Shown here piece after piece: positions 44,550 through 53,985 of a DNA stretch of 64,000 nt. Position 1 is the first letter of the stretch. Each line of letters opens with the position of its first letter. The notes beneath the pieces are model-generated. The model was not told where the DNA came from. It worked only from the letters and a program-made list of their open reading frames with translations, and did no database searches. Source of the stretch: Polynucleobacter sp. MG-Unter2-18 (lineage in GTDB: Bacteria; Pseudomonadota; Gammaproteobacteria; Burkholderiales; Burkholderiaceae); the NCBI RefSeq assembly GCF_018687675.1, contig NZ_CP061302.1, positions 694,192 to 758,191 on the forward strand, read 5' to 3'. The position numbers were made by a program, and so were the translations under genes.

Positions 44550-45115
44550 AGAGTAATTCCTTTTAATTTCAATGCTTTAGCTAGAGCCTGAGTGGCTCTT
44601 GAGCAGTGGGTTTTGACGCTTCCCTCGCTACAACTCATCGCAAGGGCAGTTTCAGTAATACTCAGCTCATCCCAATAACGCATCAGGAAGGCTTCTCGTT
44701 GACGGGCAGGCAATTTTGATATTTCTGACTCTAAAGCCTGTAATAGCTGACTACGTTCAAGCTTAAATGCACCATCTTGGTGAATTTCACTATTGTCTGG
44801 AGCTGAAAGAGACTCCAGGGGGTCAAAATCATCGCTTTCATCGGATTTCTTACCCATATTCGAGAACAGGGTGACCCAGGTATTACGAACCTTTTGTCGT
44901 CTGAACCAGTCATGAATGCGGTTTTGTAGAATTCTCGTGAAAACCAAGGGTAATTCTGCTGCAGGGCGGTCACCATATTTTTCGGCTAGCTTAATCATGG
45001 CGTCTTGAACAATGTCTAAGGCCGCATCGTCATCTCGCACAGCATAGACCGCTTGCTTGAAAGCGCGCTGCTCAACACTGCTCAGAAAGTCAGAAAGTTC
45101 TTGGGGTGAAGCCAT
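44546..45115 (-). CDS. ECF-type RNA polymerase sigma factor
   Basis: A 189-residue sigma-70-family ECF factor. Region 2 contains AFKQAVYAVRDDDAALDIVQDAMIKLAEKY, with FTRILQNRIHDWFRRQK for -10 recognition. A variable linker (~85-120) follows, then region 4, LPARQREAFLMRYWDELSITETALAMSCSEGSVKTHCSRATQAL. It heads the operon sigma-DUF3619-DUF3106-RDD. Divergent to ilvI with 193 bases between. Its regulon cannot be read from this window. Confidence 0.92.
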   Translation of the reverse strand: MASPQELSDFLSSVEQRAFKQAVYAVRDDDAALDIVQDAMIKLAEKYGDRPAAELPLVFTRILQNRIHDWFRRQKVRNTWVTLFSNMGKKSDESDDFDPLESLSAPDNSEIHQDGAFKLERSQLLQALESEISKLPARQREAFLMRYWDELSITETALAMSCSEGSVKTHCSRATQALAKALKLKGITL

Positions 45116-45308
45116 TCAGTAGATTAGACCTGAATCAGAGAGAATTCGTCCATTTTAGGAGATTGCTATAGAATATAGGGCTTACTACCTAGAATCTCAT
45201 TCAAGAAGTGGTTTTTTCCGGTAGCAGCGCCGTTCGAACTCGGGCCACAAGCAAGAGACAGAACAGACCAATCAATTTTTTGCCGAAAATTGCAAAGGAC
45301 GAAAGATA

Positions 45309-47096
45309 ATGAATACAAGCAGCGCCGAATTTTTAGCTTCTAAAGCTAATCAAGACACAACAAATACAAATCCCGCAGCAACTCCACCAGAAATGATTGG
45401 TGCCGAGATGTTGGTAAAGGCTTTGCACAAAGAGGGTGTTGAATACGTTTGGGGTTACCCAGGCGGTTCCGTTCTCTTTATCTACGATGAAATTTTCAAG
45501 CAGGACAAGTTTGAACATATTCTTGTTCGCCATGAGCAAGCAGCAGTTCATGCGGCCGATGGTTATGCACGTGCAACCGGTAAGGTTGGAGTTGCTCTAG
45601 TCACTTCAGGCCCTGGAGTAACCAATGCGGTTACCGGAATTGCCACTGCTTACACTGATTCGATTCCGATGGTGGTCATCAGCGGCAACGTACCAACTTA
45701 TGCGATTGGTGAAGATGCTTTCCAAGAGGCTGATACCGTGGGCATTACTCGCCCAGTGGTGAAGCACAACTTCTTGGTAAAAGATGTGAAAGACCTCCCT
45801 CTAGTAATTAAGAAGGCTTTCCATATTGCGCAGACAGGTCGTCCAGGCCCAGTATTGATTGATATCCCCAAGGATGTATCTGCAGCTAAAGGACCATTCG
45901 TCTACCCAGAAACATTGGAGATGCGTTCATACAACCCAGTAGTTAAGGGCCATAGTGGACAAATTCGTAAGGCGGTTTCTTTACTCCAAGAAGCTGAGCG
46001 CCCATTCATCTACACCGGTGGTGGTGTGATCTTGGCTGATGCCGCTCCAGAATTAAAAGAGTTTGCTGACTTGTTGGGTTATCCCGTTACCAATACCTTA
46101 ATGGGTCTTGGTGGTTTTCCAGGTACTAGCCCCCAGTTTGTGGGCATGCTTGGTATGCACGGTACGTATGAAGCCAATATGGCGATGCAACACAGCGATG
46201 TGTTGATTGCCGTTGGAGCGCGTTTTGACGATCGTGTGATTGGCAATACGGCTCACTTCGCAAGTCACCCACGCAAGATTATTCATATTGACATCGATCC
46301 ATCCGTGATTTCGAAGCGGGTGAAAGTGGATGTACCTATTGTTGGTAATCTCAAGGAAGTATTGCAAGAGATGACCGCTCAGCTCAAAGCTGCCGGCCCT
46401 CGTAAGAACGACGCCAAATTAGCGGCATGGTGGGCGCAGATTAATGAGTGGCGTAAAAAAGATTGTTTGAAGTACGACGAGGCATCGCAAATCGTCAAAC
46501 CGCAGTATGTAGTTCAGAAATTGTGGGAGCTTACTGGAGGCGATGCATTCATTACTTCTGACGTTGGCCAGCATCAAATGTGGGCTGCACAGTTCTACAA
46601 GTTTGATAAGCCGCGTCGTTGGATTAATTCCGGCGGTCTTGGCACTATGGGTGTTGGCTTGCCCTACGCCATGGGTATCAAGAAAGCATTCCCGGATACA
46701 GATGTATTTGCCATTACTGGTGAAGGCTCTATCCAGATGTGTATTCAAGAGTTATCCACTTGTAAGCAGTACAACACGCCAGTGAAGATTGTGTCATTGA
46801 ACAACCGTTACCTCGGGATGGTCCGTCAATGGCAGGAGCTGACTTATAACAAGCGTTATTCCAGTTCATATATGGATTCATTGCCAGACTTCGTGAAGCT
46901 GGCAGAAGCTTTTGGGCATGTAGGAATGCGCATCGAGAAGAAGTCTGATGTTGAAGGCGCTCTCAAAGAAGCAATCCGTTTAAAAGATCGCACAGTATTT
47001 ATGGATTTCCAGACAGATCCAGAGGAAAACGTTTGGCCGATGGTTCAGGCAGGCAAGGGTATTACTGAAATGCTTTTGGGTAGCGAGGATCTCTAA
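45309..47096 (+). CDS. ilvI: Acetolactate synthase, large (catalytic) subunit
   Basis: A 595-residue thiamine-diphosphate enzyme making acetolactate or acetohydroxybutyrate, the first common step of valine, leucine and isoleucine synthesis. Family features are GYPGGSVLFIYDEIFKQD, the catalytic Glu in ILVRHEQAAVHAADGYARATG, GVALVTSGPGVTNAVTGIATAYTDSIPMVVISGNVP, and the cofactor motif GEGSIQMCIQELSTCKQYNTPVKIVSLNN. AAGGAC precedes the ATG. The stop codon overlaps ilvH (TAATG). The 193 bases upstream hold no leucine-type leader peptide. Confidence 0.96.
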   Translation: MNTSSAEFLASKANQDTTNTNPAATPPEMIGAEMLVKALHKEGVEYVWGYPGGSVLFIYDEIFKQDKFEHILVRHEQAAVHAADGYARATGKVGVALVTSGPGVTNAVTGIATAYTDSIPMVVISGNVPTYAIGEDAFQEADTVGITRPVVKHNFLVKDVKDLPLVIKKAFHIAQTGRPGPVLIDIPKDVSAAKGPFVYPETLEMRSYNPVVKGHSGQIRKAVSLLQEAERPFIYTGGGVILADAAPELKEFADLLGYPVTNTLMGLGGFPGTSPQFVGMLGMHGTYEANMAMQHSDVLIAVGARFDDRVIGNTAHFASHPRKIIHIDIDPSVISKRVKVDVPIVGNLKEVLQEMTAQLKAAGPRKNDAKLAAWWAQINEWRKKDCLKYDEASQIVKPQYVVQKLWELTGGDAFITSDVGQHQMWAAQFYKFDKPRRWINSGGLGTMGVGLPYAMGIKKAFPDTDVFAITGEGSIQMCIQELSTCKQYNTPVKIVSLNNRYLGMVRQWQELTYNKRYSSSYMDSLPDFVKLAEAFGHVGMRIEKKSDVEGALKEAIRLKDRTVFMDFQTDPEENVWPMVQAGKGITEMLLGSEDL

Positions 47097-49380: not shown

Positions 49381-50244
49381 TTGCCTACATTTCGCCGTCG
49401 TGGCCGTATCGATCGCAGTCGCTTAGCAAACTCTCGTACTGATCGCACTCAAGATGAGTGGGCAGAAGACTTGGGTGATGGGATTGATTTTGAAGTCGAA
49501 GAATTACATGTAGATAAGCCACGCAAACGTAGCAAAGGCATTTACCTGCTTCCCAATGCATTTACTACCGCAGCCTTATTCTGCGGTTTCTTTGCCATCG
49601 TCAATGCGATGAACCACCAGTTTGAGATTGCTGCTATTGCCATCTTTGCATCTTTAGTTTTGGATGGCATGGATGGTCGCGTTGCTCGTATGACTAATAC
49701 CCAAAGTGCTTTTGGTGAGCAATACGATTCTTTGGCTGACATGGTGTCGTTTGGTGTGGCGCCAGCATTGGTTGCTTACGAGTGGGCCTTAAAAGACCTG
49801 GGTAAGTGGGGTTGGTTAGCTGCCTTTACTTATTGTGCAGGGGCAGCCTTACGTTTAGCGCGCTTCAATGTGAATACTGGCGTAGTAGATAAGAAGTTTT
49901 TCCAGGGCTTGCCTAGTCCAGCTGCTGGCTCCTTAATTGCTGGCTTTATTTGGCTGGCTGACGACAACAAGATCCCTGTACGCGACAGCGCTATCCCATG
50001 GATCACTTTCTTCTTAGCGGTTTATGCTGGCTTGACCATGGTATCCAATGCCCGCTTTTATAGTGGCAAGGCCTTAGATGTGCGTTATCGCGTGCCTTTT
50101 GGCGTCATGGTTCTCATGATCCTGACCTTCGTTCTGATTTCTTCTAACCCACCTTTAACTCTGTTCGGCCTCTTTGTGGTGTATTCCATTTCCGGCTATG
50201 TGATTTGGGCTTGGGAGCATCTGAGTGGCCGTCGTTTTAGCTAA
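49381..50244 (+). CDS. pssA: CDP-diacylglycerol--serine O-phosphatidyltransferase
   Basis: A 287-residue membrane enzyme making phosphatidylserine. A 50-residue basic cytoplasmic leader (FRRRGRIDRSRLANSRTDR) precedes several membrane helices. The CDP-alcohol phosphotransferase motif is DGMDGRVARMTNTQSAFGEQYDSLADMVSFG. It starts with TTG. It is 28 bases after psd. Its stop codon is immediately followed by the leader region of leuA. Confidence 0.93.
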   Translation: MPTFRRRGRIDRSRLANSRTDRTQDEWAEDLGDGIDFEVEELHVDKPRKRSKGIYLLPNAFTTAALFCGFFAIVNAMNHQFEIAAIAIFASLVLDGMDGRVARMTNTQSAFGEQYDSLADMVSFGVAPALVAYEWALKDLGKWGWLAAFTYCAGAALRLARFNVNTGVVDKKFFQGLPSPAAGSLIAGFIWLADDNKIPVRDSAIPWITFFLAVYAGLTMVSNARFYSGKALDVRYRVPFGVMVLMILTFVLISSNPPLTLFGLFVVYSISGYVIWAWEHLSGRRFS

Positions 50245-50246
50245 TT

Positions 50247-50252
50247 TATAAT
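50247..50252 (+). promoter_or_regulatory. -10 box of the leuA leader transcript
   Basis: A perfect TATAAT lies two bases after the pssA stop codon. The -35 region (about 50224-50229, inside pssA) is poor, so activation or a weak promoter is possible. Transcription would start near 50259, just before the leader peptide. Confidence 0.45.
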
Positions 50253-50272
50253 ATTTAGGTTATATTTAATCA

Positions 50273-50359
50273 ATGTTGATGAATTTCTCACTCTCTAACT
50301 TGCCTAGCGGGAAACTGCTTCTAGCGCTAAGCCTTGAGCTTGGGGCAGGTAAGGCCTGA
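50273..50359 (+). CDS. leuL: leuA leader peptide (leucine-rich, attenuation)
   Basis: A 28-codon reading frame, too short for ordinary ORF lists: MLMNFSLSNLPSGKLLLALS followed by LELGAGKA. Nine of 28 residues are leucine. Seven lie in the second half or just before it, including three in a row (CTG CTT CTA at 50315-50323) and then CTA, CTT and CTT. It ends 41 bases before a strong terminator and 154 bases before leuA. Translation would sense charged leucine tRNA. The ribosome site is weak (AGG at 50257-50259, 13 bases upstream; a second ATG is at codon 3). Function is inferred from codon content and RNA structure. Confidence 0.75.
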   Translation: MLMNFSLSNLPSGKLLLALSLELGAGKA

Positions 50360-50407
50360 GTTAATGAGATTAAAGTAATTCATTAGCCGCCACATACCAG
50401 CCCCAGC
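50338..50407 (+). promoter_or_regulatory. Predicted antiterminator pairing of the leuA leader
   Basis: GCTTGGGGCAGG (50338-50349) can pair with CCAGCCCCAGC (50397-50407), giving ten base pairs with one bulged T and one mismatch. The second strand is also the 5' arm of the terminator, so the two structures exclude each other. A small TAATGA/TCATTA hairpin (50362-50367 with 50380-50385) lies in between and would bring the arms together. A ribosome stalled at the leucine codons (50315-50340) would leave the first arm partly free; one at the stop codon would cover it. Confidence 0.65.
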
Positions 50408-50430
50408 AAATTGCTGGGGTTTTTGTTTTT
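50401..50430 (+). terminator. leuA attenuator terminator
   Basis: Stem CCCCAGC/GCTGGGG with AAATT loop (up to nine pairs) followed by TTTTTTGTTTTT. It lies between the leucine-rich leader peptide and leuA, so it is the regulated terminator of the attenuation system; it is not the pssA terminator alone. Confidence 0.85.
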
Positions 50431-50513
50431 AGGGGTAGTAACTAGTGTTTAGTAGTTAGTAAATATAAATTAGCAGTAAGCATAATGAAGCAATATTGAA
50501 CCGGAGAGTAGTG

Positions 50514-52061
50514 ATGAGCGACAAAGTAATCATTTTTGATACCACCTTACGTGATGGTGAACAATCACCTGGCGCTTCCATGACCAAGGATGAGAAGGTT
50601 CGCATTGCTCGCCAGTTAGAGCGCCTTAAGGTGGATGTGATCGAAGCTGGATTTGCTGCGAGCTCAGAAGGTGATTTTCAGGCAATCTCTGCAGTGGCGG
50701 CAGCCGTGAAGGATTCGATTGTCTGCTCACTCGCACGGGCTAATGACAAAGATATTACTCGGGCTGCTGATGCATTAAAGGCTGCAAACGCAAAACGGAT
50801 CCATGCATTTTTGGCAACTAGCCCATTGCATATGGCAGTGAAATTACGCATGTCTCCAGAAGAGGTTTTGGAGCAGGCTAAACGGTCCATTCGTTTTGCT
50901 AGAAACCTGGCCGAGGATGTGGAGTTCTCAGCAGAAGACGGCTATCGCTCAGAAATGGATTTCTTGTGCAGAGTGGTGGAAGGAGTGATTAACGAGGGTG
51001 CTACTACTATCAATATTCCGGACACCGTAGGCTACGCTACTCCAGAGTTGTATGGTGAGTTCATCAAGACTTTACGTACTCGAGTCCCCAACTCTGATAA
51101 AGCAGTGTGGTCGGTGCACTGCCACAATGACTTGGGTATGGCCGTCGCTAATTCCTTGGCGGGCGTCAAAATTGGTGGTGCACGTCAAATTGAGTGCACC
51201 GTGAATGGTTTAGGTGAGCGTGCTGGTAATACAGCATTAGAAGAAATTGTGATGGCCTTGCGTACTCGCAAAGATTATTTCGATCTGGTTTGCGGTATCG
51301 ATGCCACTCAAATTGTTCCTGCATCGAAGTTGGTTTCGCAAATTACCGGCTTTATTGTTCAACCGAACAAGGCAGTTGTGGGTGCCAATGCGTTTGCGCA
51401 TACCTCGGGAATTCATCAAGATGGCATCTTAAAGAATCGCGATACCTACGAGATCATGCGTGCAGAAGATGTGGGTTGGGCTACTAATAAGATTGTCTTG
51501 GGTAAATTATCTGGCCGTAATGCTTTCAAGCAGCGCTTACAGGAATTAGGTATTGCGATTGAAGCTGAAGCGGATTTGAACGAAGCTTTTGTTCGCTTTA
51601 AGTCATTGGCCGATCAAAAATCAGAAATCTTTGATGAAGACATTATTGCCATCATGTCAGACTCTGCTGCAGCTGAAGAAGGTGAGTTTTATAAATTCAT
51701 TTCTTTAAGTCAGCATTCTGAAACAGGTGAGCGACCACAGTCTAAAGTGACCTTCCGGGTTGGTGACAAAGAGGCTAGCTCCGAGGCTGAGGGTAATGGT
51801 CCAGTCGACGCGAGCTTGAATGCCATCGAGCAGATCGTGAAAAGCGGGGCAGAGCAATTGCTCTACTCCGTAAATGCAATTACCTCAGGCACTCAATCTC
51901 AGGGCGAGGTTACTGTCAGACTTGCAAAGGGCGGACGTATCGTGAATGGTGTTGGAACTGATCCGGACATCATTGCGGCTTCAGCGAAAGCCTATTTATC
52001 AGCGCTAAATAAATTGCACGATCCTAGCCAAGCAAAGCTCAATGCCCAGATGACACCTTAA
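50514..52061 (+). CDS. leuA: 2-isopropylmalate synthase
   Basis: A 515-residue enzyme condensing acetyl-CoA with 2-ketoisovalerate, the first committed step to leucine. The catalytic barrel has [72 protein letters not shown] (metal-binding HxH) and [11 protein letters not shown]. The C-terminal ~130 residues are the LeuA regulatory domain for leucine feedback. The ATG at 50514 is chosen for CCGGAGAG ahead of it; a TTG 18 bases upstream is open but not needed. Expression is probably controlled by the leader at 50247-50430. Confidence 0.96.
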
Positions 52062-52100: not shown

Positions 52101-52694
52101 TTATTTATTTAGATCTGTGTTTTTATAATACTTAGTGCCTTTGCCGGTGATTTCAGCGGCAAGGCCTGAGTCTGTCAATTGATACATTAATACGCCAGGT
52201 GCTACGTTAGCAGCATCTTGGTATGCACCACCATTAGCCTCATACTTAGCGGCAGCTGTAACTTGACCGCCAAATGTCCATCCAGAATTAACAAAGTCAT
52301 TCAGTGCGCTTTGTGTTTGAAATACGAAAATATTTTGGAAGGATTTAATTCCAATGCCCAGTCCAGCTTGAACTTCAGCCATGTTCATGTAAATCGGTTT
52401 GGCGCCATCCTTTAAAATGACAACACCGCTACCAGTACCGCCGCCAGCAATCAGAATCTTCATTCCAAAGTTGCTAAAGGTCGCGTAACCGACAGATTTA
52501 TCAATGACCTCTTTTGCTTTGGGTTGAGCTTGGTAAAGCGCCTTCAGAGTCTCGTCACTCTTTTTGAGGATGTCTTGGCGTTGCTGGGCAATGGTTTTTT
52601 CGGCGGCAAAAGGATTTGAAAATTGTGCAAAACTGAATGTAGAAAATAGAGTTAATAGACCAAAGGCTAATGCTTGAATGAATTTAGTTTGCAC
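52101..52694 (-). CDS. SYLF/Ysc84-domain exported protein
   Basis: A 197-residue exported protein with signal peptide MQTKFIQALAFGLLTLFSTFSFA and a SYLF (Ysc84) domain: KEVIDKSVGYATFSNFGMKILIAGGGTGSGVVILKD, then MAEVQAGLGIGIKSFQNIFVFQTQSALNDFVNSGWTFGGQVTAAAKYE. SYLF domains bind lipids or phosphoinositides in eukaryotes; bacterial roles are unclear. It is divergent from the patatin lipoprotein with 85 bases between. Both deal with lipids, so a shared membrane-stress role is possible but speculative. Confidence 0.9.
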   Translation of the reverse strand: MQTKFIQALAFGLLTLFSTFSFAQFSNPFAAEKTIAQQRQDILKKSDETLKALYQAQPKAKEVIDKSVGYATFSNFGMKILIAGGGTGSGVVILKDGAKPIYMNMAEVQAGLGIGIKSFQNIFVFQTQSALNDFVNSGWTFGGQVTAAAKYEANGGAYQDAANVAPGVLMYQLTDSGLAAEITGKGTKYYKNTDLNK

Positions 52695-52779: not shown

Positions 52780-53985
52780 ATGACTCTGTTAGCTCGCTGT
52801 ATCTTTACTCTCTTCATACTTTCCTTGGTAGGTTGCGGCAGTTTGCAGCGCAAAGCGGTAGTGCCATCGCAGCAGATGGGTCAAGCGCAAATTGCCGGTC
52901 TTACTTGTGCGCGCTATATGGTGGCCAGTCAATCGAGCGTAGACCAGATGGCCATGGATATTCAGGCGGGATTTAAGGTGAGGGATGAAAAAACCTTAAA
53001 TGCACCGGCAAATTATTTATCCCTCTCTGGTGGTGGCGATGATGGTGCCTATGGTGCTGGATTATTAATAGGGTGGGCGGACCGCGGCGATCGCCCGCAA
53101 TTTAACTTGGTCACTGGTATCAGCACTGGCGCATTAATTGCCCCATTTGCTTTTATGGGCAAAGAATATGATCCGGTCTTACGCGATGTTTATACAAAAT
53201 ATGGCCCTCAAGATATCTTCACGGAACGTGGATTAATCTCAGGCATTTTGAGTGATGGCTTATCTGACACCACCCCCTTGTTTCAATTGATCTCAAAATA
53301 TATTGATGAAGATTTTCTGAAGAAGGTGGCAAATGAGTACACCAACAAAAACCGCTGGCTTTTGATTGGGACAACTAATTTAGATGCAGGTGTGCCTGTA
53401 GTTTGGAACATGGGCAAGATTGCCAGTATCGGTACTCCAGAAGCCTTAGAGCTCTTTAGAAAAGTCATGCTGGCTTCTGCATCGATTCCTGGGGCCTTTT
53501 CTCCGGTGATGTTTGATTTTGAGGTTTCTGGCCAGAGTTTTCAGGAGATGCATGTCGATGGCGGTGCTATTACTCAGGTATTTCTCTATCCAAGCGCCTT
53601 ATCCCAGCGAGCTCAAGATTTAAAACTCAAGCTACAAAAGCAGCGCAATGCCTACCTTATTCGCAATGCCCGCTTGGATCCTGAGTGGCGCGAGACAGAG
53701 CGGGGCACCTTAAGCATCATTCAGAGAGCGATTTCCAGCATGATTCAGACTCAAGGAATTGGCGATCTCTATCGCATTTATCACACTACCCAGCTTGATG
53801 GAGTCAGTTTCAATTTGGCTTTTATCGGGTCAGACTTTAAGTTCCCCCACAAGACTGAGTTTGACACCGCCTATATGCAAGCCCTTTTTGATTATGGTTA
53901 CAAGCAGGGGCTGGGCGGTAAGGAGTGGCAAAAGTACCCGCCAGGCTACAAAAAGGGATTTGATGGAGAAATGCCTAAAAAATAG
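52780..53985 (+). CDS. Patatin-like phospholipase lipoprotein
   Basis: A 401-residue predicted lipoprotein: ARCIFTLFILSLVGCGSLQR has the lipobox LVGC near residue 19. The patatin fold shows the oxyanion loop SLSGGGDDGAYGAGLL, the nucleophile elbow GISTGALIAPFAF, and the catalytic Asp in HVDGGAITQVF. It should hydrolyse acyl esters of lipids in the periplasm. A terminator is not obvious after it. The rightward rpsO gene is 226 bases further on. Confidence 0.9.
   Translation: MTLLARCIFTLFILSLVGCGSLQRKAVVPSQQMGQAQIAGLTCARYMVASQSSVDQMAMDIQAGFKVRDEKTLNAPANYLSLSGGGDDGAYGAGLLIGWADRGDRPQFNLVTGISTGALIAPFAFMGKEYDPVLRDVYTKYGPQDIFTERGLISGILSDGLSDTTPLFQLISKYIDEDFLKKVANEYTNKNRWLLIGTTNLDAGVPVVWNMGKIASIGTPEALELFRKVMLASASIPGAFSPVMFDFEVSGQSFQEMHVDGGAITQVFLYPSALSQRAQDLKLKLQKQRNAYLIRNARLDPEWRETERGTLSIIQRAISSMIQTQGIGDLYRIYHTTQLDGVSFNLAFIGSDFKFPHKTEFDTAYMQALFDYGYKQGLGGKEWQKYPPGYKKGFDGEMPKK

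Follow-up and report, generated by a model that had tools for sequence, protein, structure and literature searches.

A probable leucine attenuator with a putatively leaderless leader peptide upstream of leuA in Polynucleobacter

How is transcription into leuA, the gene for 2-isopropylmalate synthase, regulated at a Polynucleobacter locus that places a leucine-rich open reading frame and a strong terminator directly in front of it? The window analyzed here, a 64,000-nucleotide stretch of the Polynucleobacter sp. MG-Unter2-18 genome, carries leuA with ilvB, ilvN, ilvC, psd and pssA on its upstream side, all six matching NCBIfam models above cut-off, and the interval from the end of pssA (50244) to the start of leuA (50514) holds the leader frame followed by the terminator. 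We consider it probable, with a rough probability of 0.85, that leuA is controlled from this interval by classical ribosome-mediated transcription attenuation and that the leader peptide is translated from a leaderless mRNA. The features around the leader are as follows, in window coordinates.

49381-50244, + strand: pssA, the upstream neighbor (NCBIfam TIGR00473, above cut-off)
50247-50252, + strand: TATAAT, probably not a promoter (not conserved among relatives)
50261-50266, + strand: TATATT, conserved -10 element (comparison of relatives)
50273-50359, + strand: leader peptide frame of 28 codons, from ATG at 50273 to TGA at 50357-50359 (read directly; kept in relatives)
50315-50329, + strand: candidate control codons CTG CTT CTA GCG CTA (read directly; folding; CTA enriched in leaders)
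50503-50506, + strand: GGAG, Shine-Dalgarno-like motif of leuA
50514-52061, + strand: leuA, the putatively regulated gene (NCBIfam above cut-off; Pfam HMGL-like and LeuA_dimer)

At the head of the ilvB-ilvN-ilvC-psd-pssA run, the region upstream of ilvB (44700-45309) contains no leader discernible by eye, and a terminator scan lists no terminator-like site on its + strand. Beyond leuA, the neighborhood includes a SYLF/Ysc84-domain protein on the - strand (52101-52694; Pfam above cut-off, an NCBIfam lipoprotein model below cut-off) and a patatin-like phospholipase (52780-53985; Pfam above cut-off), which also gives a weak match, far below cut-off, to a CBASS phospholipase model.

The leucine-rich leader and its promoter

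The search for LeuA covered 121 genus genomes, 150 from the family and 200 from the order, as well as a wider collection of genome contigs from which the best 80 loci were taken. The genus set draws on 110 of the 121 genomes (30 loci and 80 regions), the remaining 11, eight of them with partial leuA matches only, being left out; together with L001 and 16 genome-contig loci among the best 80, it yields 127 loci that collapse to 116 distinct upstream regions. These represent the window's genus and its closest relatives, and the named close relatives among the best 80 contig loci are Polynucleobacter.

As the earlier note had read directly from the DNA, the leader frame runs from ATG to TGA over 28 codons, encodes nine leucines (MLMNFSLSNLPSGKLLLALSLELGAGKA) and includes the consecutive leucine codons CTG CTT CTA (50315-50323). 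A further CTA stands at 50327. A leucine-rich leader (6-12 Leu) is retained between pssA and leuA in all 116 distinct upstream regions, and it is enriched in CTA. This codon accounts for 341 of the 1021 leader leucine codons in these regions, whereas seven genes of the window use it for 8 of 208 leucines. In leaders of other Burkholderiales (best 80 contig loci) its share is 90 of 181, versus 17 of 2383 in the corresponding leuA genes. The note had set beforehand, as its own check, that the leucine codons and an alternative helix be conserved, and both, together with the terminator, are kept across the 116 regions. Between Leu10 and the leucine run, the window leader also carries four codons, CCT AGC GGG AAA (PSGK, 50303-50314), that are absent from most relatives; a similar insert is found in at least nine relatives' rows, spread over more than one subgroup.

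A -10 element ahead of the leader start is likewise conserved. In the window, 6 nt separate the TATATT hexamer from the leader ATG, and an in-frame ATG preceded by a -10 element (at least 4/6 matches) at 5-8 nt is found in 115 of the 116 rows, the sole exception (L138) having ATA in place of ATG. The element reads TATATT or TATAGT in 113 of these 115 rows, and the spacing is 6 nt in 102 of them, 7 nt in 12 and 8 nt in one. With leaders picked by leucine content only, a stricter rule (at least 5/6, 6-7 nt) detects the -10 before 114 of 116 leader ATGs versus none of 373 other ATGs in the same regions. A Shine-Dalgarno-like motif is present ahead of 109 of 116 leuA starts but of just 6 of 115 leaders. 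Speaking against a promoter at this place, the -35 element is weak in most rows, with a best match of 3/6 in 79 of 115 rows and of 5 or 6 in 14 of 115; a two-hexamer sigma-70 scan of the window lists no promoter at the leader, and the + strand site nearest to the terminator lies within leuA (50536-50565).

The earlier note had pointed to the TATAAT that follows pssA. The hexamer is indeed present and is a perfect -10 in the window, and the leader ATG lies just 28 nt past the end of pssA, so that the same attenuator could be imagined on an RNA that starts near 50259, or that reads through from pssA, with the leader translated either behind a short 5′ UTR or through reinitiation past the end of pssA. 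We regard such an upstream start as unlikely: TATAAT is matched at 5/6 or better in 6 of 115 relatives, whereas TATATT or TATAGT is kept at its fixed distance from the ATG, and the near-absence of Shine-Dalgarno-like motifs likewise speaks against an RNA with a 5′ UTR. TATAAT is thus probably not the promoter.

If TATATT, 14 bases beyond TATAAT, is the promoter, then the leader mRNA would be leaderless. In Burkholderia cenocepacia, a TAnAAT-containing motif averages -8 to -16 from the transcription start (PMC4603805, in the part available), and given this distance and the spacing of the window's -10, the first base of the leader RNA would be expected to be the A of the ATG or one of its neighbors. 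We therefore strongly infer a leaderless mRNA, with a predicted 5′ end on or directly beside the first base of the leader frame (50273). Burkholderiales do produce leaderless mRNAs: the same source, as far as available, places the primary start exactly at the annotated start for 72 B. cenocepacia genes and within 10 nt for 42 more, 24 of these 114 near-start genes being tRNAs, and the available part of a Cupriavidus metallidurans study classes 4.67% of primary starts as leaderless (PMC7563307). Start-site maps for Burkholderiales exist, which makes the predicted start testable at single-base resolution. A leaderless start would also mean that RNA reading through from pssA should initiate the leader poorly, so that attenuation may act mainly on RNA made from the leader's own promoter.

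RNA helices and the predicted switch

Four RNA regions, numbered 5′ to 3′, can be delineated from the last control codon onward.

50327-50332, + strand: region 1 (R1), pairs with 50338-50343 (covariation analysis, folding)
50338-50351, + strand: region 2 (R2), within the last codons of the peptide, partner of R1 or R3 (covariation analysis, folding)
50395-50406, + strand: region 3 (R3), pairs with R2 as the putative antiterminator or, through its 3′ part, with region 4 (covariation analysis)
50399-50430, + strand: intrinsic terminator, stem 50399-50408 with 50412-50421 (region 4), T-rich to 50430 (116 of 116 rows)

The predicted fold of this region is more stable than all of 200 dinucleotide shuffles, both for 50258-50440 (z -3.2) and for 50330-50420 (z -3.4). 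For the covariation analysis, each of the 116 rows was reduced to three segments, one around R1-R2, one around R3 and one around region 4, giving 86 distinct triples. The earlier note had proposed an alternative helix between 50338-50349 and 50397-50407, with one arm overlapping the last codons of the peptide. Such a helix is present and R2 does lie in those codons, but the conserved register is slightly wider: 50340-50346 and 50348-50351 pair with 50400-50406 and 50395-50398, respectively, for a total of 11 pairs with one G-U and one internal mismatch. In most rows, TTGGGGC[A/G]GGTA faces TACC[A/G]GCCCCAG, and among the 86 distinct rows 912 of 946 cells are paired in this register versus 259-441 when it is slid by one or two positions. 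The compensatory changes that the note had asked for in this helix are seen among the relatives, with C-G (71 rows) replaced by T-A (13) at one pair and A-T (64) by G-C (11) at another. Seven chosen pairs are intact in 568 of 602 cells. When partners were exchanged at random between rows 2000 times, the mean was 532 and the highest value 547, a comparison that gives no probability because the rows are related. Furthermore, RNAalifold recovers the identical 2:3 helix from a structure-free alignment of 27 distinct rows, with a linker between R2 and R3, again with compensatory changes (G-C in 18 rows to A-T in 7; T-A in 13 to C-G in 5).

A second conserved hairpin, which the note had left unnamed, joins R1 to the 5′ part of R2 (50327-50332 with 50338-50343). 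Its six pairs form in 81 of 86 rows when the best-fitting of three registers is taken for each row; with no choice of register, RNAalifold predicts a hairpin of five pairs, and for one of these the pairing is kept in 53 of 63 distinct rows. The terminator pairs, in the strong terminator that the note had placed before leuA, are nearly invariant (85 rows). At the level of sequence comparison, then, the relatives support the 1:2, 2:3 and 3:4 helices along with the leucine codons, the -10 spacing and the lack of a Shine-Dalgarno motif.

To model the RNA ahead of a translating ribosome, we folded the sequence beyond the ribosome's edge, assumed to lie 12 nt 3′ of the first base in the A site, up to R3. 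The predicted probability of the 2:3 helix is 1.00 as long as the A site holds any of codons 12-20, which include leucine codons 15, 16, 17 and 19, and drops to 0.00 for every position from codon 21 to the stop, so that the predicted switch point falls between codons 20 and 21. The note's expectation that stalling and completion would give opposite structures is thereby borne out by folding, but only until the 3′ arm of the terminator is made. Once region 4 is included, the terminator wins at equilibrium whichever of the tested codons the ribosome occupies (P 0.72-1.00), and the switch must therefore be kinetic and act during RNA synthesis. Such kinetic switching is usual for attenuators. The naked leader folded to R3 forms the 2:3 helix with a probability of 0.605, and 2:3 still prevails over 1:2 when R1 is exposed (codons 12-14); the folds thus fail to show 1:2 protecting R2.

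We propose the following sequence of events. RNA polymerase would start on the leader ATG or no more than a base or two away from it. Under a shortage of charged leucine tRNA, a ribosome would be expected to stall on CTG CTT CTA GCG CTA and leave R2 free to pair with R3 before region 4 is made, which would block the terminator and allow transcription of leuA. When leucine is plentiful, the ribosome would reach the stop codon and cover R2, R3 would pair with region 4, and transcription would end near 50421-50430. The 1:2 hairpin may serve as a protector when the leader is not translated. The earlier note's reading of the locus as ribosome-mediated attenuation is supported by both conservation and folding, and classical leucine attenuation can be considered well supported by the comparison of relatives.

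Two other readings of the same elements deserve consideration. Termination would free an RNA of ~150 nt, and the peptide end LGAGKA is common within the genus, so that the leader RNA or its peptide might act in trans, perhaps alongside attenuation, as has been proposed for rnTrpL and peTrpL of Sinorhizobium meliloti (PMC7298713, in the part available); however, the conserved end of the peptide falls on R2, other groups have a different one, and we consider a role in trans improbable. Still less probable is that the hairpin is a plain terminator of the ilv-psd-pssA operon, with an incidental frame and a leuA promoter further downstream. The strength of the terminator between pssA and leuA (-16.4 kcal/mol) would suit such an arrangement, yet a conserved leucine-rich frame enriched in CTA, pairing of R2 and R1 with compensatory changes and a -10 element tied to the ATG would all be unexpected in it.

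One locus of the genus search (L167, genome G102) has a leuA with eight internal stops, yet its leader, -10 and terminator are intact. A role in trans for this particular leader was considered and dropped, as a recent frameshift would look alike.

Relation to described leader systems

The proposed leucine attenuator resembles that of the enterobacterial leu operon, where leuL of Escherichia coli and Salmonella is a leucine-coding leader before leuA with alternative antiterminator and terminator structures. E. coli leuL is likewise 28 residues long, but it has four leucines (PMC6123439, in the part available) versus nine in the window leader. Unlike its enterobacterial counterpart, the window leader lacks a Shine-Dalgarno sequence and has a -10 element 6 nt before its ATG, and leuA follows alone, next to pssA.

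Leaderless attenuator peptides are already known outside Burkholderiales (PMC7298713, in the part available). According to this source, the 5′ end of the S. meliloti trpL RNA (rnTrpL) coincides with the leader ATG, as predicted in the window, although that system responds to a different amino acid, tryptophan, belongs to the Alphaproteobacteria and encodes a peptide of 14 residues. From another phylum, the Actinobacteria, the accessible text on Corynebacterium glutamicum describes a leuA leader with a short frame and four consecutive leucine codons (PMC4046766), and mycobacterial polycysteine frames and C. glutamicum ilvBNC, of that same phylum, are reported to have leaderless or RBS-less leaders, short frames with codons for the regulated amino acid.

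For Betaproteobacteria, we found no description of a leucine attenuator in the literature searched, although one could be contained in the survey of Vitreschak et al. (2004), which that literature did not cover; the main text of another attenuator survey (PMC2965389), in the part available, makes no mention of leuA. The present locus would thus add a leucine attenuator, well supported by comparison, to a lineage for which the literature searched describes none. In database searches, the window leader has no Rfam match at gathering score and, with E up to 5, just six matches below gathering score, all to unrelated families, while the peptide matches nothing in Pfam and NCBIfam up to an E of 10, short peptides being hard to match.

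Leaders across Burkholderiales and a C-rich second class

Outside the genus set, leaders were sought by the leucine rule in three samples. The rule misses some leaders (L214, for example, has one), and the family- and order-level regions were chosen by hand and are no random sample. Among the best 80 contig loci, 62 other distinct regions remain after L058 and L084 are excluded as too short, and 38 of them have a leader; a -10 (at least 4/6) lies 6-8 nt before 37 of these 38 leaders, with an extended TGn in 34, versus 2 of 288 control ATGs, and four of the 38 pass the stricter rule of 5/6 at 6-7 nt. At the family level, a leader is found in 8 of 19 regions, 7 of the 8 with a -10. At the order level, 55 of 80 regions have a leader and 25 do not; a -10 at 6-8 nt precedes 45 of the 55 at a threshold of 4/6 and 42 at 5/6, versus 7 and 4, respectively, of 258 control ATGs. 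Many related bacteria thus appear to share the unusual start proposed for the window leader.

What follows the stop codon differs between these groups. A single lenient rule detects an intrinsic terminator in 116 of 116 genus rows and in 35 of 35 chosen contig loci, mostly comamonads, from the best 80. Of the 45 order-level leaders preceded by a -10, it detects one in 12 and none in the other 33. In these 45, the 30 nt after the stop contain 0.41 C and 0.14 G, with C exceeding G in every one, versus 0.16 for both bases in the genus rows. The order-level loci L212-L251 and L253-L292 include, on this evidence, a second leader class that is C-rich and G-poor after the stop, often with a hairpin that lacks a U tract. 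Some C-rich loci carry a stretch like CCCC-ACAATTCGAGTAGTA, and many order-level leaders share the peptide end LLLR..AR.

Of 36 loci, 26 were examined for hairpins after the stop: the best one begins at +30 to +41 in 17 of them, and for 12 of these 17 no more than 5% of 60 shuffles fold equally well. Within the same 26, L223, L213 and L217, among others, have no hairpin after the stop that is better than chance. As a guess, the C-rich class may be a Rho-dependent version of the attenuator.

Taken together, these data allow a tentative reading that we hold as somewhat short of an even chance, in which a leaderless leucine attenuator is old in Burkholderiales, only RNA from its own promoter is attenuated, and the switch exists in intrinsic and in Rho- or pause-dependent versions. 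The -10, the start codon, the leucine codons and the antiterminator strand would in that case share ~90 bases; the intrinsic version would be that of the window's genus and of the contig loci drawn mostly from comamonads, and the other would be marked by the C-rich stretch after the stop, often with a hairpin lacking a U tract. Related families would then display intrinsic and possibly Rho-dependent versions of one switch side by side.

When 12 relatives' loci were searched against Rfam, none of the C-rich class members among them matched. The single match is to ilvH RNA (RF02993), a described cis-regulatory RNA that gives no hit in the window and lies upstream of leuA at a comamonad-type locus (L074:19-86).
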